Source: an uncultured Bacteroidota bacterium (GTDB lineage Bacteria > Bacteroidota > Bacteroidia > Bacteroidales > F082). From it: DNA of 64,000 bases. This document shows positions 19,453 through 36,055 of this stretch, one piece after another (the stretch's first letter is position 1; every line of letters starts with the position of its first letter). The stretch is taken from positions 1 to 64,000 of the forward strand of contig CAJXKB010000006.1 of NCBI GenBank assembly GCA_913055825.1, read 5' to 3'. The translations under genes and the position numbers were made by a program. Under the pieces are notes generated by a model. That model was not told the DNA's origin. It worked only from the letters and a program-made list of their open reading frames with translations, and did no database searches.

Positions 19453-19830
19453 ATGAAGAAAAAAATACTTGTAATTGATGATGAACTCTCCATACGCATG
19501 TTGTTAGAAAATTACCTGAGCAAAAAATATGAGGTGGTAACTAAAGTGGACGGACAGGAAGGAATAAAGTATCTGGAAGAGGGAAATATGCCCCATCTAA
19601 TTGTAGCTGATATTCAGATGCCTAACCTGGATGGATATGAATTCTTAAAGCAATTAAAAGCCAGCGGATTTTTCAAAGATATCCCCATAATCATGCTCTC
19701 CGGAATTGAAAGCAGCCAGGAAAGGGTGAAATTTTTAAAAATGGGTGCCGATGATTATATTGTAAAACCATTTAATCCGGAAGAACTATCCCTCCGGATT
19801 GACAATTTAATAAGCCGTACCAGCAAGTAA
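19453..19830 (+). CDS. Single-domain response regulator (receiver only)
   Basis: The 125-residue protein is a complete CheY-like receiver: acidic pair Asp9-Asp10 (VIDDE), phospho-acceptor Asp53 in VADIQMPNLDGYEFL, a Ser in IIMLSG and Lys in YIVKPFNPEEL. It has no output domain and so must act by protein contact or in a phosphorelay. Its stop lies four bases before the start of a sugar transferase that itself carries a receiver-like domain. Co-translation and direct interaction are plausible. It would be the first gene of the exopolysaccharide operon. Confidence 0.93.
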   Translation: MKKKILVIDDELSIRMLLENYLSKKYEVVTKVDGQEGIKYLEEGNMPHLIVADIQMPNLDGYEFLKQLKASGFFKDIPIIMLSGIESSQERVKFLKMGADDYIVKPFNPEELSLRIDNLISRTSK

Positions 19831-19834
19831 ATTC

Positions 19835-21040
19835 ATGCAAGAAACAACTTCAAAAAAACTATCATTACTATATGTTGGGAGTAATCCTGAGGTATTAGAT
19901 ATACTCAACAAACATCCTAATCAAATAAACCTTGTCCATCAGGATAACGGATTAAAAGCTATCGATTATTTACGCCGTTTTGATAAGATAGATGCCATCC
20001 TCAGCGAGGCACACCTGCCGGGTATTCCGGGAGATGAAATGGCCGTTCATATAAAAGAGAGGTTGGGAATGTGGAAGATTCCGGTCGTCATCATACAATA
20101 TGAAAAAGATAAAGAATACAGAGCCAGGCTTTTTAAAAAGAAATTATTTGTAAACGACCTGTATTCTTATCCATTCGACTTTAATGTTTTATTAACACGC
20201 ATCCAGTTTCTCATACATTACCTGAATGATTTGAGAGAAACACCTGAATCGTTGGCTGCCAAAGAAAAAATGTACAAAATCCCTCTGGTAAAGAGATTAT
20301 TCGATATTGTGGTTTCGGGTACCGCTTTGCTTTTGTTATCACCCGTTTTGCTGATCGTGGCTTTGGCTATTAAATTAGAATCTAAAGGGCCGGTGATTTA
20401 TAAATCAAAACGAGTGGGTACCGGTTACCGGATATTTGATTTTCTTAAATTCAGATCTATGTATACCGGCGCTGACGCAAAACTAAAAGAGTTGGAACAC
20501 CTTAATCAATACAATAATACCGAAGATAAAAAAGGAAACATTACTTTAGATGAGAAGTGCCCTCGTTGTGCAAAATTACCAGAAGGCGAATATTGCTCAC
20601 CTAAATTATTTATTGGTGGGCAAATCATTTGTGAATATTGGTACCATGAATTGAGTAAACGAAAAAAAACATCTACTTTTATAAAAATAGAAAACGACCC
20701 GCGAATTACTAAAGTGGGAAAATTCATACGAAACACAAGTATCGACGAATTACCACAACTTATTAATGTGCTGAAAGGAGACATGTCGATAGTTGGAAAT
20801 CGTCCGCTCCCACTTTATGAAGCGGAGCAACTTACTTCCGATGATTGGAGTGCCCGCTTTATGGCCCCGGCGGGTATTACCGGGCTTTGGCAGGTAGAAT
20901 TGAGAGGAAAAGGAGGCGATATGTCAGAAGAAGAACGTAAGGCATTGGACAACCAATATGCCATGAACCATTCTGTTTTAGGTGATATTAAGCTGATATT
21001 AAGAACAATACCAGCTTTATTTCAAAAAGAAAATGTTTAA
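19835..21040 (+). CDS. Receiver-like domain fused to initiating phosphoglycosyl transferase
   Basis: Residues about 8-130 look like a response-regulator receiver in which Glu58 (AILSEAHLPGIPG) takes the place of the phospho-acceptor Asp. Residues 150-401 are a bacterial sugar transferase that loads the first sugar phosphate onto undecaprenyl phosphate. A re-entrant membrane helix with Ser-Pro (LLLLSPVLLIVALAIK) lies near 163-180, KFRSM at 205-209, and the catalytic Asp304-Glu305 in SIDELPQL. Between KFRSM and NDPRITKVGKFIR is an insertion with four cysteines, Cys242, Cys245, Cys254 and Cys266, in a CPRC...C...C pattern that could bind a metal. The domain combination suggests that glycan initiation is controlled by a non-phosphorylatable receiver. 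Confidence 0.9.
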   Translation: MQETTSKKLSLLYVGSNPEVLDILNKHPNQINLVHQDNGLKAIDYLRRFDKIDAILSEAHLPGIPGDEMAVHIKERLGMWKIPVVIIQYEKDKEYRARLFKKKLFVNDLYSYPFDFNVLLTRIQFLIHYLNDLRETPESLAAKEKMYKIPLVKRLFDIVVSGTALLLLSPVLLIVALAIKLESKGPVIYKSKRVGTGYRIFDFLKFRSMYTGADAKLKELEHLNQYNNTEDKKGNITLDEKCPRCAKLPEGEYCSPKLFIGGQIICEYWYHELSKRKKTSTFIKIENDPRITKVGKFIRNTSIDELPQLINVLKGDMSIVGNRPLPLYEAEQLTSDDWSARFMAPAGITGLWQVELRGKGGDMSEEERKALDNQYAMNHSVLGDIKLILRTIPALFQKENV

Positions 21041-21085: not shown

Positions 21086-21928
21086 ATGAACGGCAGTAAA
21101 ATAGTAATTTTCAAATCAAAAGTCGAACATGTGAAAACACGGGATCAAAACAATAGATTGCATCATTCATACTTAACCAAAGGGATTATAATTATACTGT
21201 TGGTAATGATGTATTTTCAGGGACTGGGGCAAAATCAGGTTGTGGATAGTTCCAAATTTTTCAATCCGCTTACTGATAACATTACCAAACGGCTACCTCC
21301 GTTAAATGTTTTGATTGACTCAGCTGCTTTCAACTCGCCCGATATGCGTTATCAAGATCTTAAAGCCGATTACTATTATTATGAGCAACTTTCGGCACAA
21401 AGAGCATGGCTCGAGCATTTCAGTTTAAATTTGGATATGAATATTGGAAAATGGAACTTTTGGGACAGGTACGAAAAAGATCAAAGCAACCAATACTTCC
21501 GTACAGAGTCCATTCGTGATAACTACGCAGTAGGTTTTTACATCCGGTTTCCACTGGCTACCTTGTTTGACAGAAGAAACAGAATTAAAAAACAAAAAAA
21601 ATGGATTGAGATTTCACTGACTCAAAAAGAAATAAATAAACGATTCTTAGTTAAAGAGGTTATTGAGCATTATAACAATCTGGTTCAATACCAAAATTAT
21701 ATACGAATTTACAATGACTATCAGAATTTCACTATGATGCAGATGCAGATGGCACAGAATGAATATTTAAATTCTGAAATCAGCACGGCTGAATACACCC
21801 GGCTGAAAGAAATTCAGACCCGTGGAGCCATTAATTTCCAACAAGCTATTGCTGAATTTAACAAAGAATACCAACTGTTGGAAGTTACGACAGGAATGAA
21901 ATTTAATCTGATAAATATTTTGCGTTAA
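21086..21928 (+). CDS. Half-length TolC-like outer membrane protein
   Basis: The 280-residue protein has a signal sequence (LTKGIIIILLVMMYFQGLGQ) after about 30 residues. In-frame GTG (21131) or TTG (21158) starts would give a more normal signal-peptide length, so the start is uncertain. The mature part has a predicted beta section with amphipathic strands (FSLNLDMNIGKWNFWDRYE, NYAVGFYIRFPLATLF) followed by long helices (EINKRFLVKEVIEHYNNLVQ, EYTRLKEIQTRGAINFQQAI). This matches one repeat of the TolC fold. TolC proteins normally have 420-490 residues with two repeats. It sits directly before the Wzz-like gene, where a Wza-type exporter would be expected. Confidence 0.75.
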   Translation: MNGSKIVIFKSKVEHVKTRDQNNRLHHSYLTKGIIIILLVMMYFQGLGQNQVVDSSKFFNPLTDNITKRLPPLNVLIDSAAFNSPDMRYQDLKADYYYYEQLSAQRAWLEHFSLNLDMNIGKWNFWDRYEKDQSNQYFRTESIRDNYAVGFYIRFPLATLFDRRNRIKKQKKWIEISLTQKEINKRFLVKEVIEHYNNLVQYQNYIRIYNDYQNFTMMQMQMAQNEYLNSEISTAEYTRLKEIQTRGAINFQQAIAEFNKEYQLLEVTTGMKFNLINILR

Positions 21929-21942
21929 TTAATTCGACTTGA

Positions 21943-24858
21943 ATGGATTTATTTTACTTCATACGGTTATTTAAAAGAAATATACTTCTGCTTTTAGGGA
22001 TACCTTTCTTATTGGCTGTGGTTGTCTATTATTTTACACGTAACCAGGAAAAAGTTTACCAGTCGGAAGCTGTTATCTATACCGGTATTACTACCGGCTA
22101 CTCAATTGAATCGACAAACCAGCGTGCCACCGACTTTTTTAGTACAAGTGCACAGTTTGACAACATGATAAACCTGTTGAAATCACGTCAAACGATCGTT
22201 GAAACTGCCATCCGCCTGCTTGCTCAGGATCTTTCACTTGAAGCACCTAATCCACAGTATATTTCACGTGCAAATTATGAATTGTTGATGGCAAACACAC
22301 CCAAGCGAATCAAGGACCTTGTGGTTAAAAATAATAAATCGGGAATCCAACGTGAGAAAGAAGAACAAATTCATTCACTGGAAAAAGAAATCCATTCGCT
22401 GGAAAAAGAAATCAGCAAAAAAAAGAACATTGCAGCAAGAGAATTATCTAACATAAATAAAACAGTTTCTAATAACTACGGAGCTTCCAAACAAACAACT
22501 TCAATCACTCAAAAGACAGTTCCTGCCGGCCTGACCCATACCGTATTACCCGGTGAAACATTATCATCCATTGCCAGTCGCTATGGCGTTTCAAGGGGCG
22601 AGTTGATAAAGTTGAACCAGCTGGGCAACGGAAATGTGAGCCCGGGTCAAAATATTACTATCAGACAAGGTAATCAAAGCGTAACTACTGCTCAGTATCA
22701 CACGGTACAACCCGGTGAAACACTTTTTTCCATTGCTAAACGCTATGGCGTGAATATCAATAAATTAAGAGAACTCAATAATTTGAATAACAGAGAATTG
22801 AGACCTGGACAACGCATTAAAATTGAGGACAATACAACCGGTGGAAATGATTTGTACAATTACGCATTAAAACAGGTATCCCCTGATTATTCCACGCAAA
22901 CATCAAATAAGGGTACAGGTGTTTCAAATAACAAAATCTCAACTGAATCGTCAATTGTTAGTCCGCAAAATATATTTGTTAAAGACCCGATTGTCCCTCC
23001 GGGAATAAAAAAATCGGACTATGAAAAAACAGTAAGAAACCTGAGACGCTACTACGCCTCCAGCGACACAAACTGGATATATGGTTTGGTACATTACGTG
23101 GCGAGTAGGCATTACAGTATCAGTGCCATTAGTAAAATTCAAATTTACCGTATTAGCAATAGCGATTTGGTAAAGCTGACTTATACTTCAGATGATCCCG
23201 GAATTTGTCAACAAACGCTGAAAATTATTTCAAAAGTATTTATGAGCGATTATAAAGCTCTACGTATAAATGAAACCGACAGGGTTGTCAGATATTTTCA
23301 GCGCCAGGTTGATTCGTCCGATAAAAAGCTTTCAGAAGCTGAGGACCGCCTGTTACGTTTTAATAAACGAAACAATATTATTAATTACTACGAACAAAGT
23401 AAATACATTGCTGCTCAAAAAGAAGATCTTGATAAATACTATCAGGATCAGCAAATTAAACTTTCAGGAGCTTCAGCCTCGTTGCAGGAGCTGGAAACAA
23501 AAATGACTGCCCGCGATTCAATCTACTTAAAAAGTGATGAAATCAACCAGCGGAAGAAACAGTTAGCTGATGTTTCGGAAAAAATAATTGTTAATCAGTT
23601 GGCCGAAACATACAACAGCCAGGTAGCTACTAAATTAACCCAACTTCGTGCCAAGCAAAAGAAATTGCGAAACGAGATAAAGTTTTATGTGGATCAACTC
23701 TATCTTTATGGCCATTCGACACAAGGCGTGCCCATAAAGAACATCCTGGATTCATGGCTTAAGAACACTATCAACTATACCGAAGCTAAAGCTGCATTAA
23801 TTGTCCTGGCAAGACGTAAGCTCGATTTTATACGTACTTATCAAAAAATGGCGCCTTTAGGTGCCATGCTTACCCGGATAGAACGTGAGATTAAAGTAGC
23901 TGAGCAAACTTACCTTGAGATGCTGCATAGTTTGAATGTGGCTAAAATGAAACAACAAAATTTGGAAATGTCAACTAACATAAAAATTGTTGATCCTCCT
24001 TTTTTCCCTATTGCACCCAACCCTTCTAAAACAAGATATATTGTAATTGCCTCGGCAATTGCAGGCTTCCTCCTGATTGCATTGGTTATTGTGATGTTGG
24101 AGTATTTTGATACTTCGGTGAAAAACCCTGCCCGTGTAATTGAAAAAACCAAAATGCAATTGGCAGGTGCATATCCCTATTTGTCATCCAAACATCAGGC
24201 CAACGAGCTATCGCAAATCGGTATCAGGCTTACTGATATGATGATTCAGAATATTAAACTGAACCTTGCCAAATCAGATAAAAATCCTGAAAAACCCTAT
24301 CTGATACTGGTTTTGAGTACTCAAAATGGTGTAGGGAAAACGCTCATTGCCCAAAAAATCATAAACCGCATGCGTGCAATGGGCGATAAGGTGCTGTTTT
24401 TAAATTATTTGTCAGACCCATCCGAACAGGAAGATGAAGACTTCAACCAGTCTTACTCCTATACGATTAAAAATAATTTTATCGATATTGAAAACCTTCA
24501 GCAATTAATTGATAACCGGGCTTTACGAAAATCCAACATTGCGTATGATTTTATATTTTTAGAGATACCTTCTATTATTTACCATACTTATCCAATCAAG
24601 TTATTGTCGGATGTTGATTTAAATTTGTTTATCATCAAAGGGAACAGTCGTTTTGGCAAGGCCGACGAACATGCTATTGAATCTTTTAAGAAAGCATCAC
24701 AAGGTACACCAATGGTTGTGCTTAATGAAGTTGAACTATATAATCTGGAAGATTTGTTAACGGAAATACCAAAAACAAAGCCTGGTATTATTGAAAAGCT
24801 GAAAGCAATGCTTACTTATCCTGGTAAATTCAAAGTAACCATAAAGAAAGAAGCTTAA
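21943..24858 (+). CDS. Wzz/BY-kinase-like chain-length protein with two LysM domains
   Basis: The 971-residue inner-membrane protein starts with a Wzz domain: membrane helix at about 13-32, then an extracytoplasmic region. A coiled-coil stretch (repeated HSLEKEI, about 142-158) leads to two LysM peptidoglycan-binding domains at about 197-241 and 251-296 (HTVLPGETLSSIASRYGV and HTVQPGETLFSIAKRYGV). Further coiled coil and a GNVR-like part precede a second helix at about 696-716. The C-terminal ATPase domain has Walker A STQNGVGKT. The A' motif reads LFLNYLSDP, with Asn for the usual Asp, and the Walker B reads FIFLEIPSI, with Glu for Asp. There is no C-terminal tyrosine cluster. Tyrosine-kinase activity is therefore doubtful. 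Confidence 0.9.
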   Translation: MDLFYFIRLFKRNILLLLGIPFLLAVVVYYFTRNQEKVYQSEAVIYTGITTGYSIESTNQRATDFFSTSAQFDNMINLLKSRQTIVETAIRLLAQDLSLEAPNPQYISRANYELLMANTPKRIKDLVVKNNKSGIQREKEEQIHSLEKEIHSLEKEISKKKNIAARELSNINKTVSNNYGASKQTTSITQKTVPAGLTHTVLPGETLSSIASRYGVSRGELIKLNQLGNGNVSPGQNITIRQGNQSVTTAQYHTVQPGETLFSIAKRYGVNINKLRELNNLNNRELRPGQRIKIEDNTTGGNDLYNYALKQVSPDYSTQTSNKGTGVSNNKISTESSIVSPQNIFVKDPIVPPGIKKSDYEKTVRNLRRYYASSDTNWIYGLVHYVASRHYSISAISKIQIYRISNSDLVKLTYTSDDPGICQQTLKIISKVFMSDYKALRINETDRVVRYFQRQVDSSDKKLSEAEDRLLRFNKRNNIINYYEQSKYIAAQKEDLDKYYQDQQIKLSGASASLQELETKMTARDSIYLKSDEINQRKKQLADVSEKIIVNQLAETYNSQVATKLTQLRAKQKKLRNEIKFYVDQLYLYGHSTQGVPIKNILDSWLKNTINYTEAKAALIVLARRKLDFIRTYQKMAPLGAMLTRIEREIKVAEQTYLEMLHSLNVAKMKQQNLEMSTNIKIVDPPFFPIAPNPSKTRYIVIASAIAGFLLIALVIVMLEYFDTSVKNPARVIEKTKMQLAGAYPYLSSKHQANELSQIGIRLTDMMIQNIKLNLAKSDKNPEKPYLILVLSTQNGVGKTLIAQKIINRMRAMGDKVLFLNYLSDPSEQEDEDFNQSYSYTIKNNFIDIENLQQLIDNRALRKSNIAYDFIFLEIPSIIYHTYPIKLLSDVDLNLFIIKGNSRFGKADEHAIESFKKASQGTPMVVLNEVELYNLEDLLTEIPKTKPGIIEKLKAMLTYPGKFKVTIKKEA

Positions 24859-24862
24859 AAAG

Positions 24863-26299
24863 GTGGCAAATGTACTGGCAAAAATATTCAAAAATAAAAA
24901 CTTCCTCTCTCTGGCAAACAATGGCCTGATAGCTGTTTTCGGTTTTTTTGGATTTCTCCTTTTAGTCAGGAGCCTTGGCACAAACCAGTTTGGTGAGTGG
25001 GTGCTTTTTATTACAACGGCAAATTTCATCGACATGTTACGTTTTGGTATCACACGGACGGCAATTGTCCGCTTTTTAGCCGGAGCCAAACAGAATGAAG
25101 CCAAAAAACTCATCGGATCAAATTATCTGATTAATCTCGTTTCAACCCTATTAATTATTGCTGTGGTATTGGTGATTAACTTCTTTTTTACCAATACCGT
25201 AAAAAACTCCGGGTTTTCTCTGTTTTTTCAATGGTTTCCGGTATTAGCCCTGATAAACTTACCTTTTAATAATGCACAATCCGTTTTACAAGCCAGGATG
25301 CAATTCGACCGTATCCTCCTCCTCCGCAGTGTAAATGTAGGTCTATTCATGCTTTTTTTATTGGTAAACTACTTCGCTTTTCGCTTCCAGCTTTCAATTA
25401 TTGTGTATGCTTATTTGGCCATCAACCTGCTTACATCTTTCATTGCAAGTGTCACCAATTGGGATGGCATACGTTACCTGTTTAAGGCCAGTCGTTCTAC
25501 AAATAAAATGATTTTAAATTTCGGAAAATATTCAACAGGCACACTCATAGGCAGCAACTTACTAAAGAGCGCTGACACTTTTATCATTGGTTTAAGTCCA
25601 TTCCTGGGTACTGCCGGAGTTGCACTTTATAGCATTCCGATGAAACTCACTGAAATTATTGAAATCCCACTTCGCAGTTTTGCCATGACCGCTTTTCCGG
25701 GCATGTCAAAAGCCAGCATTGAAGGTAACAACGATTTGGTAAGGCATATTTTTTACCGAAATGCCGGCGGGATGACATTATTGATGATCCCCATCATGTT
25801 ATTTTCATTTATTTTCGCGAAAGAACTGGTCTATATTCTCGGTGGACCCGGCTACGAATCAACGGCTAATATTTTTCGTATATTTTGTATATATGGCATT
25901 TTCCTTCCCCTCGACCGCTTTATTGGCGTAGCGTTAGACAGCGTAAACCAGCCAAAATTAAATTTCTTAAAAGTTGTCTATATGACCCTGGCCAACATCA
26001 TTGGAGACTCGATAATGGTTTTTTCCTTCTATTATCTCGTCGCCGTGGTCAGCCTTTCTACTTTACTATGGCATGGATTTGGCAATTTGGAATTTATTGG
26101 ATTGGTTACCCGTGACTTTTCTGTAAACATTGTTCTTCAGGGAGTAGCATGGGTAACCATTTCATTTACGCTAATAGGGATTTTTGTTGGTTATCATTAT
26201 TTAAATCAGAATCTCGAAATTCATTTACGGAAATTGTGGAGCGGAGGCATTCAGTTCTTTAGCGAGAGTATTTTTCGTAAGAAAAAAATAAACCGCTAA
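24863..26299 (+). CDS. wzx: Polysaccharide flippase (Wzx-like, MATE/MOP superfamily)
   Basis: The 478-residue integral membrane protein starts at a GTG four bases after the preceding stop; there is no suitable in-frame ATG nearby. About 12 hydrophobic helices are spread over its length, beginning with FLSLANNGLIAVFGFFGFLLLV. The pattern LVRSLGTNQFGEWVLFITTANF and, later, GTLIGSNLLKSADTFIIG fits the polysaccharide_synt family of lipid-linked oligosaccharide flippases. It would move undecaprenyl-linked repeat units across the inner membrane. Position between the Wzz-like and polymerase-like genes supports this. Confidence 0.88.
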   Translation: MANVLAKIFKNKNFLSLANNGLIAVFGFFGFLLLVRSLGTNQFGEWVLFITTANFIDMLRFGITRTAIVRFLAGAKQNEAKKLIGSNYLINLVSTLLIIAVVLVINFFFTNTVKNSGFSLFFQWFPVLALINLPFNNAQSVLQARMQFDRILLLRSVNVGLFMLFLLVNYFAFRFQLSIIVYAYLAINLLTSFIASVTNWDGIRYLFKASRSTNKMILNFGKYSTGTLIGSNLLKSADTFIIGLSPFLGTAGVALYSIPMKLTEIIEIPLRSFAMTAFPGMSKASIEGNNDLVRHIFYRNAGGMTLLMIPIMLFSFIFAKELVYILGGPGYESTANIFRIFCIYGIFLPLDRFIGVALDSVNQPKLNFLKVVYMTLANIIGDSIMVFSFYYLVAVVSLSTLLWHGFGNLEFIGLVTRDFSVNIVLQGVAWVTISFTLIGIFVGYHYLNQNLEIHLRKLWSGGIQFFSESIFRKKKINR

Positions 26300-26335: not shown

Positions 26336-27829
26336 ATGCTGGAATCGTTAAAAGATAAAACCGGGGCAACCAAACTTCAACATCCGCTGATTATCGGATT
26401 AGTGATCATAGCAACAATAGTTGTAGGCTTTATCATTGCCAGGGGCGGGTTTAAAATTGCCATTGCCATGATGTTGCTTGCGCCGATATTGATTTATTTA
26501 AACAGGCTGTTTGTCCACCCGGTCCTTGGAATCTACAGCGTTCTTTTTATGGCTTTTACTGCCATTGGATTAACACGTTACATTCAAGGGGTTCCCTTGG
26601 GTTTAAGTATTGACGGTTTACTTGTTTTAACCATTATTTCAATTTTTTTCAGAAACTTTTACGACAAAATTGATTTTAAGTTGCTTAATCGCGATATTGT
26701 CTACCTTCTGATTATTTGGTTCGCCTATTCTATTCTCGAATTTTTTAACCCCCAGGCATTGAGCCGCACGGCATGGTTTTATGCCATGCGTGGGATGTCT
26801 CTTTACCCACTGCTTGCCGTAATGTTAGGTCTGTTGATATTCAATCGTTTAAGACATCTTTATGGTTTTCTGATTTTTTGGGCTGCATTTTCTCTTTTGG
26901 CCACACTTAAAGGCTTGCAACAGAAGTATATCGGGCTCGATTTTGGCGAACAACATTGGTTGGATACTATAGGTGCAGTTACCCACATTATCAATGGAAA
27001 ACTCCGGATTTTCTCTTTTTTCAGCGATGCAGGCCAGTTTGGTGCTGCACAGGGAGCAGCGGGTATTGTGTTTGCGGGAATAGCCTCAGCCTTTAAAGGA
27101 TGGAAAAATAAAATTTTCTTCTGGACTGTTTCCATACTTTCCTTTTGGGGAATGATGCTATCCGGGACAAGGGGTGCCATGATTGTACCGGCGCTTGGTG
27201 GAATTACCTATGTAATCTTATCAAAACGCGTGAGGGTAATGATTGTCGGCGGTATTACCCTGGCTTTTTTATATTTCTTTTTTGCCTACACCTACATTGG
27301 CGACAGTAATGCAACCATTGCACGGATGCGGACAGCCTTTCACCCTGAAAAAGATGCATCTTATCAGGTAAGGCTTCAAAACCGTGAAATATTGAAAACA
27401 TATCTTGCCGACAAACCTTTTGGGGGTGGTATCGGTTCTGCCGGTAACTGGGGACAACGATTCTCACCACAAGGTTTTTTGGCTAATGTTGCAACCGACA
27501 GCTGGTATGTACAAATTTGGGCAGAACAAGGCCGTGTAGGCCTTATTCTACACCTTTTTATATTAATGTACATAATGATTAAGGGTTTTTATATAATCCT
27601 CGCCCGAATACATATTAAAGAATTGAGTAATGTGCTGGGGGCTTTGCTTGGAGGCTTTGCCGGTATTATAGGTGCTGCTTACGGAAATGGTGTGCTCGGG
27701 CAGATGCCTACCGGTATCTTGTTATACCTGAGCTGGGTCTTTATTTTCTCAGGTCAACAACTTGAACGTGAATACAATGCACGCCTGTCACAGGGCATCT
27801 CACCCTGGTCGTTTAAACCGCGTGATTAA
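26336..27829 (+). CDS. wzy: O-antigen polymerase/ligase-like membrane protein (Wzy-like)
   Basis: The 497-residue protein has about 11-12 hydrophobic helices. A large periplasmic loop before the last helices contains RMRTAFHPEKDASYQVRLQN and PFGGGIGSAGNWG, typical of the O-antigen ligase/Wzy_C family. The segment SGTRGAMIVPALGGI is the conserved family motif with Arg. It most likely polymerises repeat units in the periplasm; ligase activity is the alternative, as the two cannot be separated by sequence. It is 36 bases after the flippase gene. Confidence 0.82.
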   Translation: MLESLKDKTGATKLQHPLIIGLVIIATIVVGFIIARGGFKIAIAMMLLAPILIYLNRLFVHPVLGIYSVLFMAFTAIGLTRYIQGVPLGLSIDGLLVLTIISIFFRNFYDKIDFKLLNRDIVYLLIIWFAYSILEFFNPQALSRTAWFYAMRGMSLYPLLAVMLGLLIFNRLRHLYGFLIFWAAFSLLATLKGLQQKYIGLDFGEQHWLDTIGAVTHIINGKLRIFSFFSDAGQFGAAQGAAGIVFAGIASAFKGWKNKIFFWTVSILSFWGMMLSGTRGAMIVPALGGITYVILSKRVRVMIVGGITLAFLYFFFAYTYIGDSNATIARMRTAFHPEKDASYQVRLQNREILKTYLADKPFGGGIGSAGNWGQRFSPQGFLANVATDSWYVQIWAEQGRVGLILHLFILMYIMIKGFYIILARIHIKELSNVLGALLGGFAGIIGAAYGNGVLGQMPTGILLYLSWVFIFSGQQLEREYNARLSQGISPWSFKPRD

Positions 27830-27838
27830 TACAGCTAT

Positions 27839-28777
27839 ATGAATATAAAAGAAAAAAACCAACCACTTGTTTCCGTGGTAACTGTAAATTATAATCAGTC
27901 GGAAGTCACATGTGAATTTCTATCTTCTTTTGAAAAAATCAGTTATCCAAATACCGAAATATTTGTTGTTGACAATGCCTCTCCCAACGACAACCCTGAA
28001 ATTATCAAAGAAAAATATCCATACATTCATTTTATACAAACCGAAAAAAATTTGGGCTTTGCCGGGGGCAATAATGTAGCCCTGCCCCATTGTAAAGGAA
28101 GATATGTGTTATTTATCAATAATGATACGGAAGTTGAACCGGGTTTTTTAGAACCCCTCGTTGAAGTTCTCGAAACTCACCAGGATGTGGCAATGGTCAG
28201 CCCAAAAATCCATTATTTTCATACCCCCAACACACTCCAGTTTGCCGGATTTACCCCCATTCATCCCATTACCATCCGTAATTTCGCCATTGGCTTTGGA
28301 GAAATAGACCACGGACAATACGACATCACGTGTGAAACCGGTTCCATATTCGGAGCTGCCATGCTGGTTTCGATGGATGTTATTAAAAAAGTTGGTATTA
28401 TGACCGAGAAATTTTTCTTGTACTACGAAGAACACGATTGGGCCCACCATATAAAAAATGCCGGATATAAAATTTTTTATCAGGGACTTTCGTTGGTTTA
28501 CCACAAAGAATCCATTTCGACAGTCAAGGAAAGTCCTTTCCAGATTTTCTACCTCACCCGTGGCCGGATACTTTATGGAAGACGAAACAATAGGGGGATT
28601 GTCCGTTGCCTTAGTGTATTATACCTTTATTTTGTTGCTGCCCCAAAACAGGGCCTACACTACCTTTTGAAAGGCCGGCCCGACCTCTTTTGGGCAACAT
28701 GGCGAGCTGTATGGTGGCATTGGACACATTATAAAAACATTCAGGGTTTACCTAAATTAATTATAGAAAATAATTGA
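27839..28777 (+). CDS. Family 2 glycosyltransferase, rhamnosyltransferase-like (copy 1A)
   Basis: The 312-residue cytoplasmic enzyme has a GT-A fold: PLVSVVTVNYNQSEVTCEF at the N-terminus, VVDNASPNDNPEII for nucleotide binding, and NNDTEVEPGF containing the metal-binding acidic motif near residue 100. The acceptor region is FFLYYEEHDWAHHIKNAGY. It resembles WbbL-type rhamnosyltransferases, but the sugar cannot be named. The gene at 30018 encodes a close relative, and each is followed by a processive-type GT2, so this is half of a duplicated two-gene unit. Its stop overlaps the possible start of the next gene. Confidence 0.9.
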   Translation: MNIKEKNQPLVSVVTVNYNQSEVTCEFLSSFEKISYPNTEIFVVDNASPNDNPEIIKEKYPYIHFIQTEKNLGFAGGNNVALPHCKGRYVLFINNDTEVEPGFLEPLVEVLETHQDVAMVSPKIHYFHTPNTLQFAGFTPIHPITIRNFAIGFGEIDHGQYDITCETGSIFGAAMLVSMDVIKKVGIMTEKFFLYYEEHDWAHHIKNAGYKIFYQGLSLVYHKESISTVKESPFQIFYLTRGRILYGRRNNRGIVRCLSVLYLYFVAAPKQGLHYLLKGRPDLFWATWRAVWWHWTHYKNIQGLPKLIIENN

Positions 28778-28779
28778 TT

Positions 28780-30003
28780 ATGAGTATATTGAAAATTATT
28801 ATTTGGATTGTAGAGTACATACTCTTCGCCTATTTATTTTTGGCCACATTATACATACTGATTTTCGCCATCGCCGGTATATTTTACCGTCAAAAACAAA
28901 AATTGAAGGTGAGTAAATTCAGAAAGTTTGCTGTTCTGATTCCCGGATACAAGGAAGATGCAGTTATTATCAATGTGGCTCGTCAAGCCACGTTGCAAGA
29001 TTATCCCGACGATAAATATGAAGTAATTGTCATTGCCGACTCGTTTAAGCAAGAAACATTAGATGGTCTTCGAAAACTCCCCATTCGTGTGGTTGAAGTT
29101 GTTTTTGAGGTCAGTAAAAAATCAAAAGCCCTTAACAAATGTATGGAAATCATTGGTGATGATTATGATGTTGCCTTTGTACTTGATGCAGATAACATCA
29201 TGGAACCGGACGTCCTGAAAAAGATAAATGCAACCTTCGATCGTGGATTTTATGCCGTTCAGGGACACCGGACAGCTAAAAACCTGAATGCCAACTTTGC
29301 AATTTTGGACGCCATGAGCGAAGAAATTAACAATCATATCTTTCGGAAAGGCCACCGTGTTTTAGGCATTTCGTCCGCCCTGATTGGTTCAGGCATGGGG
29401 CTTGATTATAAACTGTTTAAAGAGACAATGGCCACTGTCGATTCGGTAGGGGAAGATAAAGAAGTTGAGCTAAAAATTATAAAACAAGGTTACCGAATTG
29501 ACTATGTACATGACGCCGTGATTTATGACGAGAAAACCCAGAAATCTGGTGCTTTTGTAAACCAACGGCGCCGTTGGATTGCCGCCCAGATCGACTACTT
29601 CAAAAGTCATATTTTAGATGGTGTAAAGGAGCTTGTGGCCAAAGGAAATTTCGATTATTTTGATAAAGTTTTTCAAATGATTCAACCACCCCGGATTTTG
29701 CTTTCAGGCATCTTATTTATCATAACCCTTATAATGGGCATCATAAACTATTTGCCTTTTAGCAGATTAAAAACTTTCTTTGTCCCCGATTGGAAGCTCT
29801 GGCTGGCTTTATTAACAGGAACAGCATTTGCCCTCCTGATCTCCATTCCGCGGAAATTTTACAACAGAAAAACATTCAAAGCTTTATTGTCGCTACCCCA
29901 CGGTTTCCTGCTTATGCTTATCAGCTTATTTAAAATAAAAGGTGCTACAAAAAAGTTTTTACATACTGAACATGCACATTTGGATGATCTTAAGCACAAT
30001 TAA
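28780..30003 (+). CDS. Membrane family 2 glycosyltransferase with QxxRW motif (copy 1B)
   Basis: The ATG at 28780 is preferred over a TTG two codons upstream that overlaps the previous stop. The 407-residue protein has an N-terminal membrane helix (about 4-28), a GT2 core with FVLDADN (metal-binding Asp), DKEVELKI in the place of the acceptor-base motif, and QRRRW at about 264-268. Two or three C-terminal helices follow (about 305-365). This is the layout of cellulose/hyaluronan-synthase-type processive enzymes. The gene at 30947 is its paralogue. Confidence 0.88.
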   Translation: MSILKIIIWIVEYILFAYLFLATLYILIFAIAGIFYRQKQKLKVSKFRKFAVLIPGYKEDAVIINVARQATLQDYPDDKYEVIVIADSFKQETLDGLRKLPIRVVEVVFEVSKKSKALNKCMEIIGDDYDVAFVLDADNIMEPDVLKKINATFDRGFYAVQGHRTAKNLNANFAILDAMSEEINNHIFRKGHRVLGISSALIGSGMGLDYKLFKETMATVDSVGEDKEVELKIIKQGYRIDYVHDAVIYDEKTQKSGAFVNQRRRWIAAQIDYFKSHILDGVKELVAKGNFDYFDKVFQMIQPPRILLSGILFIITLIMGIINYLPFSRLKTFFVPDWKLWLALLTGTAFALLISIPRKFYNRKTFKALLSLPHGFLLMLISLFKIKGATKKFLHTEHAHLDDLKHN

Positions 30004-30017
30004 AAAAGTAACCGGAC

Positions 30018-30947
30018 ATGAGTGCAAAGCGCAAATATTATCCTTTGGTATCCATCATCACTGTAAATTATAATCAGGCTGAAGTTACCTGTGCGCTGTT
30101 AACCTCACTCAACAAAATAAGTTATCCAAATTTTGAAGTTATCGTAGTGGACAATCATTCCACCGAAGACGACCCTTCCATTATTAAAAAACGTTTCCCG
30201 AATATTGTTTTCATTCAAAACCCTATAAATTATGGATTTGCAGCCGGAAATAACTATGGGCTTATGCGAGCGCGTGGTGATTATGTGTTGCTGTTAAACA
30301 ATGATATCGAAGTTCCTGCAGGTTTTTTGGAACCTCTGGTTGATAAACTCGAAAAAAACCCGGAAATAGGATCTGTAAGTCCCAAAATAAAATTTTACTA
30401 TCAGCCTGACACCATTCAATACGCAGGTTATACACCCATTGACAATGTTACTATGCGCAACCGCTCCATCGGCTATTGGGAAAAAGACCGGGGCCAATAC
30501 AACGAAGACCGAGAAACGGCCTATACCCACGGCGCAGCAATGCTCGTGCCTATGAAGGTAGTGAAAGAGATAGGGTTAATGTCGTATATTTTCTTTTTGT
30601 ATTACGAAGAAGCCGACTGGTGCGCCCGTATTAAAACTGCCGGTTACAAAATGTTTTATGTAGGAAATTCTTATGTACTTCATAAAGAATCGGTTTCAAC
30701 GGGCAAAATGAGTGCTCTGAAAATTTATTATCTCAACCGGAACCGTATTGTTTTTATGCGCCGTAACCTTCACGGAAAAGAGTTTTACATAGCCTTGCTT
30801 TATCAATTGTTTGTGGCTATCCCGAAAAATGCCTTTAAATTTTTGGTTAAAGGCAAAATTAAACTCTTTTTGGCTTACTACCGTGCCATTGGCTGGCACC
30901 TCACCCATCTTATATCACACGAAATTCACGAAAATCCCATGCTGTAA
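30018..30947 (+). CDS. Family 2 glycosyltransferase, rhamnosyltransferase-like (copy 2A)
   Basis: The 309-residue enzyme closely resembles the product of 27839 along its whole length, for example PLVSIITVNYNQAEVTC against PLVSVVTVNYNQSEVTC, and FFLYYEEADWCARIKTAGY against FFLYYEEHDWAHHIKNAGY. The metal-binding segment is NNDIEVPAGF. The paralogues probably add different sugars or use different acceptors. Its stop codon overlaps the next ATG by one base (TAATG), a sign of translational coupling. Confidence 0.9.
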   Translation: MSAKRKYYPLVSIITVNYNQAEVTCALLTSLNKISYPNFEVIVVDNHSTEDDPSIIKKRFPNIVFIQNPINYGFAAGNNYGLMRARGDYVLLLNNDIEVPAGFLEPLVDKLEKNPEIGSVSPKIKFYYQPDTIQYAGYTPIDNVTMRNRSIGYWEKDRGQYNEDRETAYTHGAAMLVPMKVVKEIGLMSYIFFLYYEEADWCARIKTAGYKMFYVGNSYVLHKESVSTGKMSALKIYYLNRNRIVFMRRNLHGKEFYIALLYQLFVAIPKNAFKFLVKGKIKLFLAYYRAIGWHLTHLISHEIHENPML

Positions 30948-32167
30948 TGTTAACAACTACTATTCATATTGCCGAATATATTATTTATACCTATCTGGTA
31001 TTCAATACTTTTTACCTGTTTGTTTTTGCTTTTGCAGGCGTATTTCCGCTTAAACGCGATAAAAAAATACCCCTGAAAAATCGAAAATTCATAGTACTTA
31101 TTCCCGGTTACCGTGAAGATTCTGTGATTATTGACGTGGCCAACGAGGCCTTAAAACAAGATTATGGCCGTGAAAATTACGAAGTAGCCATTATTGCCGA
31201 CGGTTTTAAAAAAGAGACCCTTTCCGCCTTAAAAAAAATTGATGTAAAAGTTTTTGAAGTCCAACTGAAATTCAGTACAAAATCAAGGGCACTCAATGCC
31301 GCTTTAGACCAATTGGATGATTCGTATGATGTTGCTGTGGTGCTGGATGCAGATAATATCATGGCCCCCGATTTTCTAAGTAAAATTAATGCAGCATTCG
31401 ACAACGGATACATAGCTGTTCAGGGACACCGTATTGCAAAAAACATGGATACTGACTTTGCTATACTTGACGCTGTTAGTGAAGAAATGAATAATCATAT
31501 CTTCCGTAAAGGGCATCGCGTTTTGCGATTTTCATCCGCTTTGATCGGCTCAGCCATGGCCTTCGACTACACCTATTTTAAAAAAATGATGAAAGAAGTT
31601 GAGGTTGTTGGCGGATTTGATAAAGAGATAGAAGTCAGACTTTTAAGTGAGAAACAAAAAATAGAATACCTTCCGGATGCCTTTGTTTATGACGAAAAAG
31701 TACCCAATGCAAAGGTTTTTACCAAACAACGACGCAGATGGCTATCGGCACAAGTCCATTATTTCGGAAAGAGCTTTTTCCCGGCATTGACAGCTTTTCT
31801 GCTACACGGAAATCTTGATTACTTCAACAAAGCGTTACAATTTATTTTGTTGCCCCGCATTATGCTTATCACTCTTTTATTTTTAATTCTGGTTATACAT
31901 GCCATCCTGGCCCCTATCTTTTATTTTTATGCATGGCTTTTCGTATTTGTATTGTGTTTAATGGTTTTTTCACTTGCCATTCCCGGATATTTTTATCGCA
32001 TAAACACATTGCGCGCCATTAGCCGTCTGCCTTACGGAATTATTCTGATGTTTTTATCTTTGTTAAAACTTAAAAATAGTAACAAAGAATTTTTACATAC
32101 CAAACATACGTACAATGCATTTCAAATAAAGCATCCCATAACGATGCATAAAAACACAAAGAAATGA
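30947..32167 (+). CDS. Membrane family 2 glycosyltransferase with QxxRW motif (copy 2B)
   Basis: The 406-residue protein is the paralogue of the product of 28780, with shared stretches such as FRKGHRVL-SSALIGS and a VVLDADN metal-binding site. It keeps QRRRW at about 262-266 and the acidic DKEIEVRL segment. There is one N-terminal helix and two or three C-terminal ones (about 300-350). It overlaps the previous gene by one base and the next by four, so the set is translationally coupled. A linear homopolymer-type or processive addition is possible, but the product is unknown. Confidence 0.88.
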   Translation: MLTTTIHIAEYIIYTYLVFNTFYLFVFAFAGVFPLKRDKKIPLKNRKFIVLIPGYREDSVIIDVANEALKQDYGRENYEVAIIADGFKKETLSALKKIDVKVFEVQLKFSTKSRALNAALDQLDDSYDVAVVLDADNIMAPDFLSKINAAFDNGYIAVQGHRIAKNMDTDFAILDAVSEEMNNHIFRKGHRVLRFSSALIGSAMAFDYTYFKKMMKEVEVVGGFDKEIEVRLLSEKQKIEYLPDAFVYDEKVPNAKVFTKQRRRWLSAQVHYFGKSFFPALTAFLLHGNLDYFNKALQFILLPRIMLITLLFLILVIHAILAPIFYFYAWLFVFVLCLMVFSLAIPGYFYRINTLRAISRLPYGIILMFLSLLKLKNSNKEFLHTKHTYNAFQIKHPITMHKNTKK

Positions 32168-33318
32168 AGATAGCAATTGAAGGTCAACGACTTTACCGTA
32201 AACGGAAACATGGCATGGACATGGTGGCCCTGGAACTTATTAACGAGTTACAAAAACTTGATAAAGAAAATGAATATGTGGTTTTTATCAAACCGGATGA
32301 GGACAATAAAATATTTAAAGAAACAGCCAACTTTAAATTTGTAGAGCTAAAAGGAGGACCCTATCCAACCTGGGAACAAAATGCTTTACCTAAAGCAGCC
32401 AAAGCCGAAGGGTGTGATATTCTGCATTGTACCAGTAATACAGCTCCGTTAAACCCGGGAATGCCCCTTGTAGTAACACTGCATGACATTATTTATCTTG
32501 AAAGTATCAGCATCTTTAAAAAAGGGGGAACCTGGTATCAAAAGCTGGGCAATATGTACCGGCGTTATGTGGTACCACGCGTAGTGAAAAAAAGCGATAA
32601 AATCATTACAGTTTCAGAGTTTGAGAAAAACCGTATCCGTAATTTCTTCGGCTTTCCCGAATCCGATAAACGATTAGTTGCCATTTACAACGGTGTAAGT
32701 GAACACTTTCGCAAAATTGATAACCAAAACGAGTTGCAACGGGTAAAAGAATTATACCATTTACCTGACCGTTTCTTGTTTTTCCTTGGTAATACCGATC
32801 CGAAAAAGAATACGCCGGGTACTTTGAAAGCTTTTTCAGATTATTTGAAAAAAACCGGAGACGATATGTACCTCGTTATGCTCGATTACGAACAAAAAGA
32901 ACTTGAAAAACTGTTGACAGAAATTGGAGACAAAGAGCTGATTAAAAGGATTATACTTACAGGATATGTCATCAACACCGACCTGCCGGCTATTTATAAT
33001 CTTTGTAAAGTCTTTTTATATCCCTCATTACGTGAAAGTTTCGGTATTCCTATGCTGGAGGCCATGCGTTGCGGAGCACCGGTGATCACCTCAAACACCT
33101 CATCCATGCCCGAGGTATCAGGCGGTGCAGCTTACATTATCGATCCGTTTAAACCGGAAGAAATTACACAAGGTATTGAAGAAATTCTTAGTAATGAAAA
33201 GTTACGAAACAAGCTGATAAAGAAAGGTTTTGAACAATCAGCCAAATTTTCATGGAGCAATATGGCCGAAAAAGTATTGAACTTATACGAAACAGTTTAT
33301 CAAAAATACCATACCTAA
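32164..33318 (+). CDS. Family 4 glycosyltransferase (GT-B)
   Basis: The 384-residue enzyme has the GT-B two-domain layout. The N-terminal domain starts MKIAIEGQRLYRKRKHGMD and includes VVTLHDIIYLE. The C-terminal nucleotide-sugar domain has FLFFLGNTDPKKN, and the family motif SLRESFGIPMLEAMRCGAPVI near 290-310 carries the two conserved glutamates. It retains the sugar configuration. Mannosyl- or glucosyl-transfer is typical for relatives. Its start overlaps the previous stop by four bases. Confidence 0.9.
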   Translation: MKIAIEGQRLYRKRKHGMDMVALELINELQKLDKENEYVVFIKPDEDNKIFKETANFKFVELKGGPYPTWEQNALPKAAKAEGCDILHCTSNTAPLNPGMPLVVTLHDIIYLESISIFKKGGTWYQKLGNMYRRYVVPRVVKKSDKIITVSEFEKNRIRNFFGFPESDKRLVAIYNGVSEHFRKIDNQNELQRVKELYHLPDRFLFFLGNTDPKKNTPGTLKAFSDYLKKTGDDMYLVMLDYEQKELEKLLTEIGDKELIKRIILTGYVINTDLPAIYNLCKVFLYPSLRESFGIPMLEAMRCGAPVITSNTSSMPEVSGGAAYIIDPFKPEEITQGIEEILSNEKLRNKLIKKGFEQSAKFSWSNMAEKVLNLYETVYQKYHT

Positions 33319-33330
33319 AATCCTATAAAT

Positions 33331-34554
33331 ATGATAAAAAACAGAGATATTATTATGGTAGGCCTGGCCGCACTCGATAGTCGCATAGGCAGCAATGTTA
33401 TAAACCTGGCCAAGGTATTTTCAAAAAACAACAGGGTGTTGTATGTTAATTACCCATTGGACAGACTTACGATTATACGTGAGCGAAAAGATCCTTTAAT
33501 TATAAAACGCCGAAAAATCATCAAAGGGAAGCTCCCGCAAATAGAAAGGATAAATCAGAACATGTGGAGTTTCTTCCCCCGGACTGTTCTCGAATCCATA
33601 AATCAGTTGCCTGTGGACTGGCTTTTCGATATTCTGAATAAAATTAACAATAAGCGATTTGCAAGGGAGATCAGGATAGCTATTAGAAAGCTGGATTTCA
33701 AGGATATCATCATTTTTAATGATACCGATATGTTTCGTAGTTTTTACCTGAAAGAATTAATTGGCGCTAAAACACATGTTTATTATACACGCGATAACAT
33801 GGTAGCTGTAGATTATTGGAAAACACAGGGCATTCGAATAGAAGCCGCCATAATGAAAAAAGCCGATTTGGTTGTAGCCAATTCTACCTATTTGGCCGAA
33901 CTGGCAAGCCGCTTCAATCCACATTCATATTACGTGGGACAAGGTTGCGATGTAAGCCTGTTTGATAAAAAACTCATTTCTTCGGTTCCGGATGATATAA
34001 AAGACATAAAAAAACCTGTGATCGGCTACATTGGCGTTTTATATACCCTACGGCTTGATATTGAGGTGCTTGCACATATAGCAAAAAGCAGGCCTGAATG
34101 GTCAGTAGTTTTAGTTGGCCCTGAAGATGAGGCATTTAAAGAAAGTGAGTTACATCAAATTGAGAATATACATTTTTTGGGCAGTAAAAAAATGGACGAA
34201 CTCCCCTCCTATCTCAATGCTTTTGACGTGGCTCTGAACCCACAAAAACTGAATGAGGTAACCATTGGCAATTATCCGCGTAAAATTGATGAATATCTCG
34301 CCATGGGCAAACCCACGGTGGCCACAAAAACAAAAGCTATGGAAGTGTTTTCCGATTTTGTCTATCTTGCAAAAGACAAAGAAGAATATGTAAAACTAAT
34401 CGAAAAAGCACTACAAGAAAATACGCCGGAAAAAGAAATTGAAAGAGAGAAACTGGCGCGTAGCCATACTTGGGATGCCAATGCTGAAGCCATCTACAAA
34501 AGAATTGAAGAAATAGAAAAATTGAAAGAAAATGGGACTCAAAGAAAAGATTAA
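33331..34554 (+). CDS. Group 1 glycosyltransferase (GT-B, GT4-like)
   Basis: The 407-residue protein has a divergent N-terminal domain (RDIIMVGLAALDSRIGSNVINLAK) and a recognisable C-terminal GT-B domain with IGYIGVLYTLRLDIEVL, NIHFLGSKKMDELPSYLNAFDVAL and PRKIDEYLAMGKPTVATKT. The last segment holds the usual conserved glutamate. The donor is unknown. It overlaps the following acyltransferase gene by 23 bases, which supports coupled translation. Confidence 0.85.
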   Translation: MIKNRDIIMVGLAALDSRIGSNVINLAKVFSKNNRVLYVNYPLDRLTIIRERKDPLIIKRRKIIKGKLPQIERINQNMWSFFPRTVLESINQLPVDWLFDILNKINNKRFAREIRIAIRKLDFKDIIIFNDTDMFRSFYLKELIGAKTHVYYTRDNMVAVDYWKTQGIRIEAAIMKKADLVVANSTYLAELASRFNPHSYYVGQGCDVSLFDKKLISSVPDDIKDIKKPVIGYIGVLYTLRLDIEVLAHIAKSRPEWSVVLVGPEDEAFKESELHQIENIHFLGSKKMDELPSYLNAFDVALNPQKLNEVTIGNYPRKIDEYLAMGKPTVATKTKAMEVFSDFVYLAKDKEEYVKLIEKALQENTPEKEIEREKLARSHTWDANAEAIYKRIEEIEKLKENGTQRKD

Positions 34555-35149
34555 ATCCAACGAAAAATTAAAAAAGCTTGCTTTGTGGATGCTAATGCCA
34601 CGCAACCAGGCCCGACCTCGCTTGTGGGTAAAACTTTTTGTAAATCCGTTAAAACATAAAAAGGGTAAACATTCACTCATAAGGCGCCGAACACGAATGG
34701 ATGTGTTGCCTTTCAATAATTTTATATTAGGCAGGGATTCAACCATTGAGGACTTCTCAACCGTCAACAACGGTGTTGGCGATGTGCTCATTGGCGAACG
34801 GACGCGCATCGGTCTGGGTAATGTACTTATAGGCCCTGTTAAAATTGGCAACGATGTAATGTTTGCCCAAAATGTCGTCCTTTCGGGATTAAATCACGGT
34901 TACGAAAACATTAATGTGCCCCCCAGTTTGCAAAAAGTTAGTACAAAGCCCATCGTGGTTGAGGACCAGGTATGGATTGGTGCCAATGCCGTGGTTACAG
35001 CCGGTGTTACCATTGGAAAACATTCCATCGTAGCGGCAGGGTGTGTGGTTGTAAAAAATGTACCTCCGTTTTCTATTGTGGGAGGAAATCCGGGTAAAAT
35101 TCTGAAACAATACAATCACAAATCCCAACAATGGGAAAGAGCAAAATAA
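34532..35149 (+). CDS. Left-handed beta-helix (hexapeptide) acyltransferase
   Basis: The 205-residue protein carries hexapeptide repeats, for example IGERTRIGLGNVLIGPVKIG and IVVEDQVWIGANAVVTAGVTI, from about residue 80 to 190. The loop LSGLNHGYENI holds the His typical of the catalytic site in this acetyltransferase group. The C-terminal VVVKNVPPFSIVGGNPGKIL is standard for WbbJ/MaA-type O-acetyltransferases. It likely acetylates a sugar of the repeat unit, using acetyl-CoA. Confidence 0.9.
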   Translation: MGLKEKIKSNEKLKKLALWMLMPRNQARPRLWVKLFVNPLKHKKGKHSLIRRRTRMDVLPFNNFILGRDSTIEDFSTVNNGVGDVLIGERTRIGLGNVLIGPVKIGNDVMFAQNVVLSGLNHGYENINVPPSLQKVSTKPIVVEDQVWIGANAVVTAGVTIGKHSIVAAGCVVVKNVPPFSIVGGNPGKILKQYNHKSQQWERAK

Positions 35150-35249
35150 ATCTGTTTATTGATTGTAGTCCATCTTTTTTTATATTCGCCTCAACATACC
35201 TTAGTTCTAATTATAATAATAAATTAAATTTACTCACATACCGACTTAT

Positions 35250-36053
35250 ATGCATAAACTTAAAACCTTCATAAATTACTTTAAAGACTTCATCAAATTT
35301 GGGGAATATCGCTATATCTTCTCTTCCATAAAATACATCCTGACAGGCCGCACGACATCCCGAACGCAAATCTATAAGTCCAGTCTCGGAACTTTTATTT
35401 CGCGCCGGGGAAGCCTCGATTTTCAATTTGCCAATTATGCATACGAATGGCCCGTAAAAACATTCTTTCTCAACCATTATCGCAACTATGATATCTTTTT
35501 GGATATTGGAAGTAACATCGGTACTTACGCTATTTTAGCAGCACAAAAAGGATTACGAGCCATCGCCTTTGAACCCATTAAAAGTAATTTCGACACCTTA
35601 CGTATAAATCTGATTTTGAATAAACTGGAAGATAAAGTTACTGCTTTTAATGTAGCACTGGGAGTATATGCGCACAAAGCACAGTTTGCATTCGACTTGA
35701 TTAATACCGGCGCCTCCCATCTGCTCAGTGTTGAAATGGATGATGAACATCCCTCCCACATGGAAATTGATGAATCTCAAATCGTCCCGCTCGATGATTT
35801 TATTCCCCGGATGAATCTCACAAAGAAAGACCGTATTTTTTTAAAAATAGACGTTGAAGGTATGGAGGCTGAGGTGTTAAAGGGGGCAAAAAGATTTTTA
35901 CAAACTTATCCTAATATCCTGATTGTGATGGAGTCGGTTCATTCGGGAAAAGAAAGACTAACTAATATACTTAACGAAATTGATAATTTTGAAGTTTTAG
36001 AAGTTGATGACCTTAACATGGGTGCAAGAAAAATTATTCAAAAAAAAACATAG
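35250..36053 (+). CDS. FkbM-family methyltransferase
   Basis: The 267-residue protein has the SAM-binding motif IFLDIGSNIGTYAILAAQKG at about 90-110 and the FkbM-type segment IAFEPIKSNFDTLRINL. The later motif FLKIDVEGMEAEVLKGAKRFL is characteristic of the family, which O-methylates sugars and other small hydroxyl groups. A gap of 100 bases before it contains no clear promoter (TATATTCG near 35180 is one base off the consensus). Confidence 0.9.
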   Translation: MHKLKTFINYFKDFIKFGEYRYIFSSIKYILTGRTTSRTQIYKSSLGTFISRRGSLDFQFANYAYEWPVKTFFLNHYRNYDIFLDIGSNIGTYAILAAQKGLRAIAFEPIKSNFDTLRINLILNKLEDKVTAFNVALGVYAHKAQFAFDLINTGASHLLSVEMDDEHPSHMEIDESQIVPLDDFIPRMNLTKKDRIFLKIDVEGMEAEVLKGAKRFLQTYPNILIVMESVHSGKERLTNILNEIDNFEVLEVDDLNMGARKIIQKKT

Positions 36054-36055
36054 CC

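Follow-up and report, generated by a model that had tools for sequence, protein, structure and literature searches.

The closest described relatives of the system reported here are Wzc of Escherichia coli, a polysaccharide co-polymerase (PCP) of class PCP-2a and a bacterial tyrosine kinase (BY-kinase), and the outer membrane polysaccharide export (OPX) translocons, including Wza of E. coli and composite OPX-beta-barrel systems, which provide the outer-membrane step of Wzx/Wzy- or ABC-dependent polysaccharide export (PMC9601211). In Wzc of E. coli K30, the periplasmic base (motif 1) comprises residues 54-109, 209-267, and 403-427, and a jellyroll (motif 2, residues 110-206) stands between the first two base stretches, pointing outward and having no contact with its neighbor (PMC8285477). 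When arrayed glycans were probed, the jellyroll of K-12 Wzc bound those rich in N-acetylglucosamine (GlcNAc) and galactose (Gal), and capsule output fell strongly once it was deleted (PMC12881504); it has been proposed as a glycan-capture module (PMC8285477, PMC12881504). Here we describe a 64,000-nucleotide stretch, hereafter the window, of an uncultured member of the Bacteroidales (GTDB F082; contig CAJXKB010000006.1, assembly GCA_913055825.1), whose open reading frame (ORF) at 21943-24858 is, on the evidence of sequence and structure prediction, a Wzc-like PCP carrying two LysM domains in its periplasmic part. Our preferred reading, plausible from the sequence and already raised by the initial annotation of this DNA, is that these domains fix the export machinery to the cell wall.

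The two LysM repeats, initially annotated at residues 197-241 and 251-296, were recovered by Pfam as two stretches with E=5e-30 and 103.6 bits (cut-off 20.9), and the AlphaFold2 model has the beta-alpha-alpha-beta LysM topology at 197-241 and 251-295. A custom hidden Markov model (HMM) of LysM also places them at 198-240 and 252-294, and none of 1000 shuffled sequences reached E<0.01 with it; because this HMM was built from the same two repeats, the shuffle test is circular, and it is the Pfam score that constitutes independent evidence for LysM. A chance resemblance or an artefact was ruled out by the Pfam value and by the presence of the same insert in separate assemblies. The best solved sequence relative of the pair is the double LysM of a Thermus thermophilus NlpC/P60 endopeptidase (E=2.4e-16; structures 4uz2 and 4uz3), with 40% identity across both LysMs in the structure match; the nearest solved relatives, which are this protein and LytE, are LysMs of peptidoglycan enzymes. 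In T. thermophilus the pair forms a module at the N-terminus of a putative wall hydrolase, whereas in the window it is an insert within a PCP. Since the repeats lie between two membrane helices (residues ~14-32 and ~697-719), by homology with Wzc they would be periplasmic, as had been annotated, and a cytoplasmic position is ruled out by the helices on both sides.

The initial annotation had supposed that similar proteins may exist in related genomes, and they proved to be common in the order. An order-level search gave a PCP match outside LysM in at least 69 of 393 genomes; among the 41 PCPs examined, that of the window included, 30 have one or two copies of LysM by Pfam, the custom HMM also giving 30, and all inserts lie between positions equivalent to window residues 130 and 361. 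The 11 LysM-less proteins have 5-6 residues at the insertion site in nine cases and 48-56 in two. This sample was drawn near the top of the list from a LysM-bearing query, and 30/41 therefore overstates the share of LysM. The open frames of the remaining 28 order-level matches are no longer than 746 aa; G105, G165, and G327 lack LysM, and G362, split over contigs, may have it. A second collection, of genome contigs partly shared with the order-level set, was gathered with a LysM-free C-terminal seed; it comprises the best 80 of 288 relatives, and 71 of these loci carry LysM. Considering the 78 PCPs of this collection not flagged as N-terminally cut, 34 have two LysM, 36 have one, and eight have none; three of the latter (L101, L132, L155) begin 42 bp or less from a contig edge. 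The counts of both collections rule out a one-off fusion. Matches were further found in 54 of 395 genomes of a phylum-wide set, with 29 loci examined, and in 28 of 295 genomes of a class-wide set, with 29 PCPs examined, some of them shared with the phylum-wide set; LysM is present in three of the class-wide PCPs, which come from three genomes, all in a single family belonging to another order, so that outside the order LysM is rare. Because the same cluster occurs in relatives that lack LysM, the domains are an addition made in certain lineages.

On a quick tree (122 rows, LG+G4, several long branches), which does not include the three LysM-PCPs of the other order, the LysM label is strongly clustered, yet at least 11 changes are needed. 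A single clean origin is not borne out by these label changes and by the occurrence in another order, and the sequences point to either gain with losses or repeated gain. The tree excludes proteins cut by contig ends (L054, L066, L087, L141, L137, L143), short ones (L101, L132), L108, L123, L155, the outlier L172, and exact duplicates. The Bacteroidales-type locus is also carried by records bearing the names Paraglaciecola, Chlorobiota, and Alphaproteobacteria (L101, L103, L149); because L103 and L149 stand very near L100 and L148 on the tree, these contigs are probably mis-binned or misnamed.

The LysM domains differ from their surroundings in conservation. Among 22 pairs of relatives (78-98.5% identity; simple counts from non-independent pairs), the ratio of nonsynonymous to synonymous changes (pN/pS) was 0.16 in LysM a and 0.13 in LysM b versus 0.42-0.47 in the linkers around them; elsewhere in the PCP, the base had 0.10, the remaining periplasmic part 0.07, and the cytoplasmic domain 0.16. 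Mean column identity was 0.61-0.62 for LysM versus 0.26-0.28 for linkers, and G204, E205, N225, and G235 of LysM a, as well as E259, N279, and G289 of LysM b, are near-invariant where the residue is present. By these comparisons, the LysMs are under purifying selection and the linkers much less so; domains kept while linkers drift are the pattern of a tethered functional module.

Regarding the identity of the protein, profile matches were weak. GNVR (8.6e-6) and Wzz (0.011) each fell just under the Pfam cut-off, and NCBIfam gave weak matches to chain-length determinants (TIGR03007 among them) and nothing above its cut-offs; at E<=0.01, Wzz was matched in 25 and GNVR in 32 of the 41 order-level PCPs. 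The AlphaFold2 model (single chain; mean pLDDT 78.6, pTM 0.45) was built on a 59-row alignment of the window protein and 58 second-collection proteins. Its best Foldseek matches are Wzc chains (E=1.2e-16), and the VIA structural list is led by Wzc and related BY-kinase chains (Z up to 18.5). In the model, helix 14-32 is followed by a strand and helices to residue 124 and by helix 134-170; the LysM pair stands between low-confidence linkers (172-195 before it and 298-343 after it), and beyond these come strands 400-416, long helices 419-677, helix 697-721, and a P-loop-type domain. Model and hydropathy together give two membrane helices around a periplasmic Wzz-type base with long helices, which bears out the co-polymerase identity and the helix-periplasm-helix layout of the initial annotation; the coiled coil that it had placed before LysM corresponds to a single predicted helix (134-170).

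The window PCP shares with E. coli Wzc, its best structural match, the succession of membrane helix, periplasmic base and helical arms, membrane helix, and P-loop domain, and their sequence anchors align. In a profile alignment with K-12 Wzc, the NIVTSRET-like stretch of the family (before residue 98) pairs with IQLIRSRLV near 91-99, and SDL..Y..DDPG (window 407-420) pairs with Wzc from ~227, the register within the segment being unreliable. Because these flanking anchors align, and given the K30 boundaries (PMC8285477), the LysM insert occupies the segment of the Wzc jellyroll. In the predicted model, the LysMs are carried by a helix and flexible linkers and are set into the base of the periplasmic domain. 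The window PCP differs from Wzc in having a LysM arm in the jellyroll segment, and it differs as well in its helical region, of 259 residues compared with 135 for Wzc motif 3 (PMC8285477), in its kinase-like domain, and in a locus without a Wza match.

The gene directly upstream of the PCP gene encodes a 280-residue protein with one OEP repeat, predicted by AlphaFold2 (pLDDT 86.1) to form one beta-hairpin (strands 112-128 and 137-153) and a long helix (157-228). Pfam OEP was matched in all 55 members of its alignment, and the titles of the 33 Foldseek matches of its model (E<=0.001) name TolC-type channels or complexes with them, except for three that read only 'membrane protein from Pseudomonas aeruginosa'. 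A TolC-type factor has two OEP repeats per chain and forms a trimer with a 12-strand barrel. The window OEP has the Pfam domain and the fold match in common with such factors (CmeC, TolC, OprM), but it has one repeat and two long strands per chain, and its neighbor gene is a PCP; in sequence and model, it looks like half a TolC. This gene is directly upstream of the PCP in 72 of 78 second-collection loci, the other six beginning no more than 92 bp from a contig edge, and adjacent in 38 of 41 order-level loci, two exceptions being contig-cut. It also lies 20 bp or less from the PCP in 19 of the 29 LysM-less phylum-wide loci and in 22 of the 29 class-wide loci, most of which carry about 1 kb upstream. 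The OEP-PCP pair is therefore more widely distributed than LysM, since OEP adjoins LysM-less PCPs too.

The same genome contains three Poly_export (OPX) genes, on contigs C22, C83, and C1, each near a Wzz-type PCP gene; none is on the window contig (C6), and no Poly_export gene was found in the window locus, as would mark an OPX-dependent (Wza) export locus. Used as phmmer queries, these three had no match in the four ORF sets examined; they do find each other, and single-sequence queries could miss a remote OPX. Unlike Wza/OPX and composite systems, the window presents a TolC-type half protein adjoining its PCP, and we infer from gene content that OEP would replace Wza at this locus. A search of the open full-text literature, outside which bioRxiv preprints and most subscription papers fell, found no description of a LysM-bearing PCP or of an OEP-PCP polysaccharide exporter. 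LysM was co-mentioned elsewhere, for plant receptors (PMC5748678), a toxin-linked domain (PMC12419801), a separate streptococcal protein (PMC3102119), and an entry of a COG table (PMC10710014), and 'Lys^M^' in PMC12826051 is a drug-list entry.

Taking these data together, we consider moderately probable a model of an OPX-less Wzx/Wzy machine in which a ring of PCP is joined to a TolC-type channel and is tethered to peptidoglycan by LysM arms, which some lineages have added. Several PCP subunits (eight in Wzc) would ring the polymerase, their long helical arms would attach to an oligomer formed by the half-TolC protein, and the polymer would exit by a conduit resembling those of type I secretion systems or efflux pumps; the LysM arms, radiating from the ring, would bind strands of GlcNAc and N-acetylmuramic acid and so fix the conduit where it crosses the wall. 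With a helix rise of 1.5 Å per residue, the predicted helices 598-677 of PCP and 157-228 of OEP would measure ~120 and ~108 Å, summing to ~230 Å. The estimate would thus come near the reported spans of Wza-Wzc (250 Å) and AcrAB-TolC (210 Å) (PMC12881504). A PCP helical region longer than that of Wzc is expected if the PCP arms must cover the periplasmic distance of Wza. A precedent for wall-linked export exists in KpsD, whose association with peptidoglycan depends on Lpp (PMC5442458). More tentatively, and with somewhat greater doubt than conviction, this locus could represent a separate, OPX-less class of Gram-negative polysaccharide exporters of Bacteroidota in which a single-repeat TolC-like oligomer matches the PCP ring, the arms dock directly, and, in some lineages, LysM arms present on each PCP subunit clamp the trans-envelope tube to peptidoglycan.

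Several observations weigh against the tether. The search for PCP and LysM in one protein across Bacteroidota, proposed in the initial annotation, gave the combination as common in the order-level set, in none of the 29 phylum-wide loci, and as absent from 26 of the 29 class-wide PCPs; LysM is thereby missing from many relatives with the same cluster, and wall binding is not essential to this machine type. By homology, the LysMs would start near the inner membrane, on tethers. Docking of PCP on OEP and the ring itself go beyond the models, which are of single chains (PCP pTM 0.45). In one order-level locus (L053), 3.3 kb upstream of the PCP holds no cluster neighbor, OEP was not found within 20 bp in 10 of the 29 phylum-wide loci (~1 kb of upstream sequence only), and any of the three OPX encoded elsewhere in the genome could serve the window locus. 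Finally, the segment matching the jellyroll favors a glycan-capture role as well.

Capture of the system's own glycan is the main rival because LysM shares its segment with the glycan-binding Wzc jellyroll: LysM would take GlcNAc-containing lipid-linked repeats or nascent polymer and feed them to the polymerase. The correspondence with Wzc residues 110-206, and the array binding and capsule loss reported for the K-12 jellyroll, speak for it. The polymer itself may also be constant. In LysM-bearing loci where they were found, Wzx, Wzy, and the glycosyltransferases GT2a-c have median identities of 54-76% and PCP 50-55%, with Wzx and Wzy (54-62%) about as conserved as PCP, and GT2d less so (49-52%); homologues of GT2a-d were present in 8 of 15 wide loci and in 46-51 of the 71 LysM-bearing second-collection loci, whose stretches end ~6 kb downstream. 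In typical capsule loci Wzx and Wzy are variable, and their conservation here suggests, at the sequence level, a conserved polymer. Against capture, the closest solved LysMs come from peptidoglycan enzymes, the cluster is kept in LysM-less relatives, and the linkers are long, low in model confidence, and little conserved, which suits a tether better than a loading arm; the K-12 Wzc jellyroll failed to co-sediment with intact colanic acid (PMC12881504). Weighing these points, we regard glycan capture as unlikely, although a serious competitor.

Other roles seem less probable still. LysM recruits other proteins to wall sites, and here it could place the machine at particular sites, such as growing or septal wall, or sense the state of the wall without bearing load; a copy number from none to two among relatives suits such tuning better than an essential part, and sequence cannot separate this from tethering. 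We consider it improbable. That the LysMs are a passive insert without a selected role would agree with the repeated gain or loss on the tree, but the contrast in pN/pS between domains and linkers and the near-invariant residues make it highly improbable. Attachment to the wall by LysM thus remains the reading that we prefer.

The cytoplasmic domain, described as an ATPase in the initial annotation, appears degenerate. Walker A (GK[TS]) is kept in 59/59 rows of the PCP alignment; however, the Asp position of Walker A' is N in 54/59 and that of Walker B is E in 58/59, and the last 25 residues hold 0-3 Tyr in the 59 rows, compared with the Tyr-rich tail of K-12 Wzc. The catalytic Asp of A'/B that defines a BY-kinase is thereby lost in nearly all rows, as is the Tyr-rich tail, which disfavors an active tyrosine kinase, and the domain is, from its motifs and by criteria similar to those applied to EcpK, probably a pseudokinase that may still bind nucleotide. 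A similar case is EcpK of Myxococcus xanthus, a tyrosine pseudokinase with the BY-kinase fold that lacks catalytic motifs and Tyr tail and also serves a PCP (PMC12004946). EcpK, as described there, is a separate protein in which no Walker motif was matched, whereas the window domain is fused and retains Walker A.

Coordinates are collected in Table 1. The gene order is response regulator, initiating transferase, OEP, PCP, Wzx, Wzy, and glycosyltransferases. The response regulator and initiating transferase were found at matching places in 59 of 60 second-collection loci with room for them, Wzx in 65/66, and Wzy in 63/66. A single-domain response regulator also occurs together with an initiating transferase in EpsW/EpsZ of M. 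xanthus (PMC12802240), whose control the window pair recalls in gene content; unlike EpsZ, the window transferase has an N-terminal receiver-like domain of its own, and NCBIfam EpsZ gave it 174.6 bits for a cut-off of 800. By eye, this receiver-like domain lacks the usual acidic pair and phospho-Asp, which the adjoining response regulator has. Hybrid histidine kinases near the cluster could feed its response regulator, and the exported polymer may be a substrate or ligand of the beta-helix protein with Por_Secre_tail.

Table 1. Features of the polysaccharide locus and its surroundings, in window positions.
Feature	Position	Strand	Residues and evidence
Hybrid histidine kinases, upstream of cluster	12465-14513, 18072-19298		
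Single-domain response regulator (motif VADIQMP)	19453..19830	+	Pfam Response_reg 2.8e-27
Initiating phosphoglycosyl transferase, N-terminal receiver-like domain	19835..21040	+	Bac_transf 2.9e-58; Response_reg 3.6e-4, sub-cut-off
Half-size TolC-like outer membrane protein (OEP)	21086..21928	+	Pfam OEP 4.9e-9; AlphaFold2; Foldseek
Polysaccharide co-polymerase (PCP) with two LysM domains	21943..24858	+	971 aa, ATG start; Pfam, AlphaFold2, Foldseek, VIA
PCP membrane helix 1	21982..22038	+	residues ~14-32; hydropathy peak and AlphaFold2 helix
Helical arm preceding LysM	22342..22452	+	residues 134-170; AlphaFold2 helix; pN/pS 0.11 (131-170)
LysM domain a	22531..22665	+	residues 197-241; Pfam, custom HMM, AlphaFold2; pN/pS 0.16
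LysM domain b	22693..22830	+	residues 251-296; Pfam, custom HMM, AlphaFold2; pN/pS 0.13
PCP periplasmic helical arm	23197..23973	+	residues 419-677, 259 aa; AlphaFold2 helices
PCP membrane helix 2	24031..24099	+	residues ~697-719; hydropathy peak 3.01 and AlphaFold2 helix 697-721
BY-kinase-like cytoplasmic domain, probable pseudokinase	24295..24762	+	residues 785-940; motif counts, alignment with E. coli Wzc
Wzx-type flippase	24863..26299	+	Polysacc_synt_3 2.8e-11
Wzy-type polymerase / O-antigen ligase family	26336..27829	+	Wzy_C 1e-11
Seven glycosyltransferases, hexapeptide transferase, and FkbM methyltransferase, same cluster	27839..37246	+	
Right-handed beta-helix protein with Por_Secre_tail sorting domain, after glycosyltransferases	37251-38912		
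ORF resembling another hybrid histidine kinase, downstream	39746-41284		by eye
Tyrosine recombinase, near contig end	62379-63605		Phage_integrase, SAM-like and arm domains

The structure report on Wza-Wzc does not address what keeps a tube carrying a large polymer in place on its way through the wall, and it never uses the word peptidoglycan (PMC12881504). A PCP with domains of a wall-binding type, of which natural versions have none, one, or two, makes the question of wall anchoring testable by deletion and by natural variants. Furthermore, the OEP partner suggests that polysaccharides may be a further cargo of TolC-type channels, which are known to carry drugs and proteins; this would extend the outer-membrane routes beyond OPX and OPX/beta-barrel. 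If true, the OPX-less class would unite in one exporter the working principles of Wzc and of a type I secretion or efflux channel.

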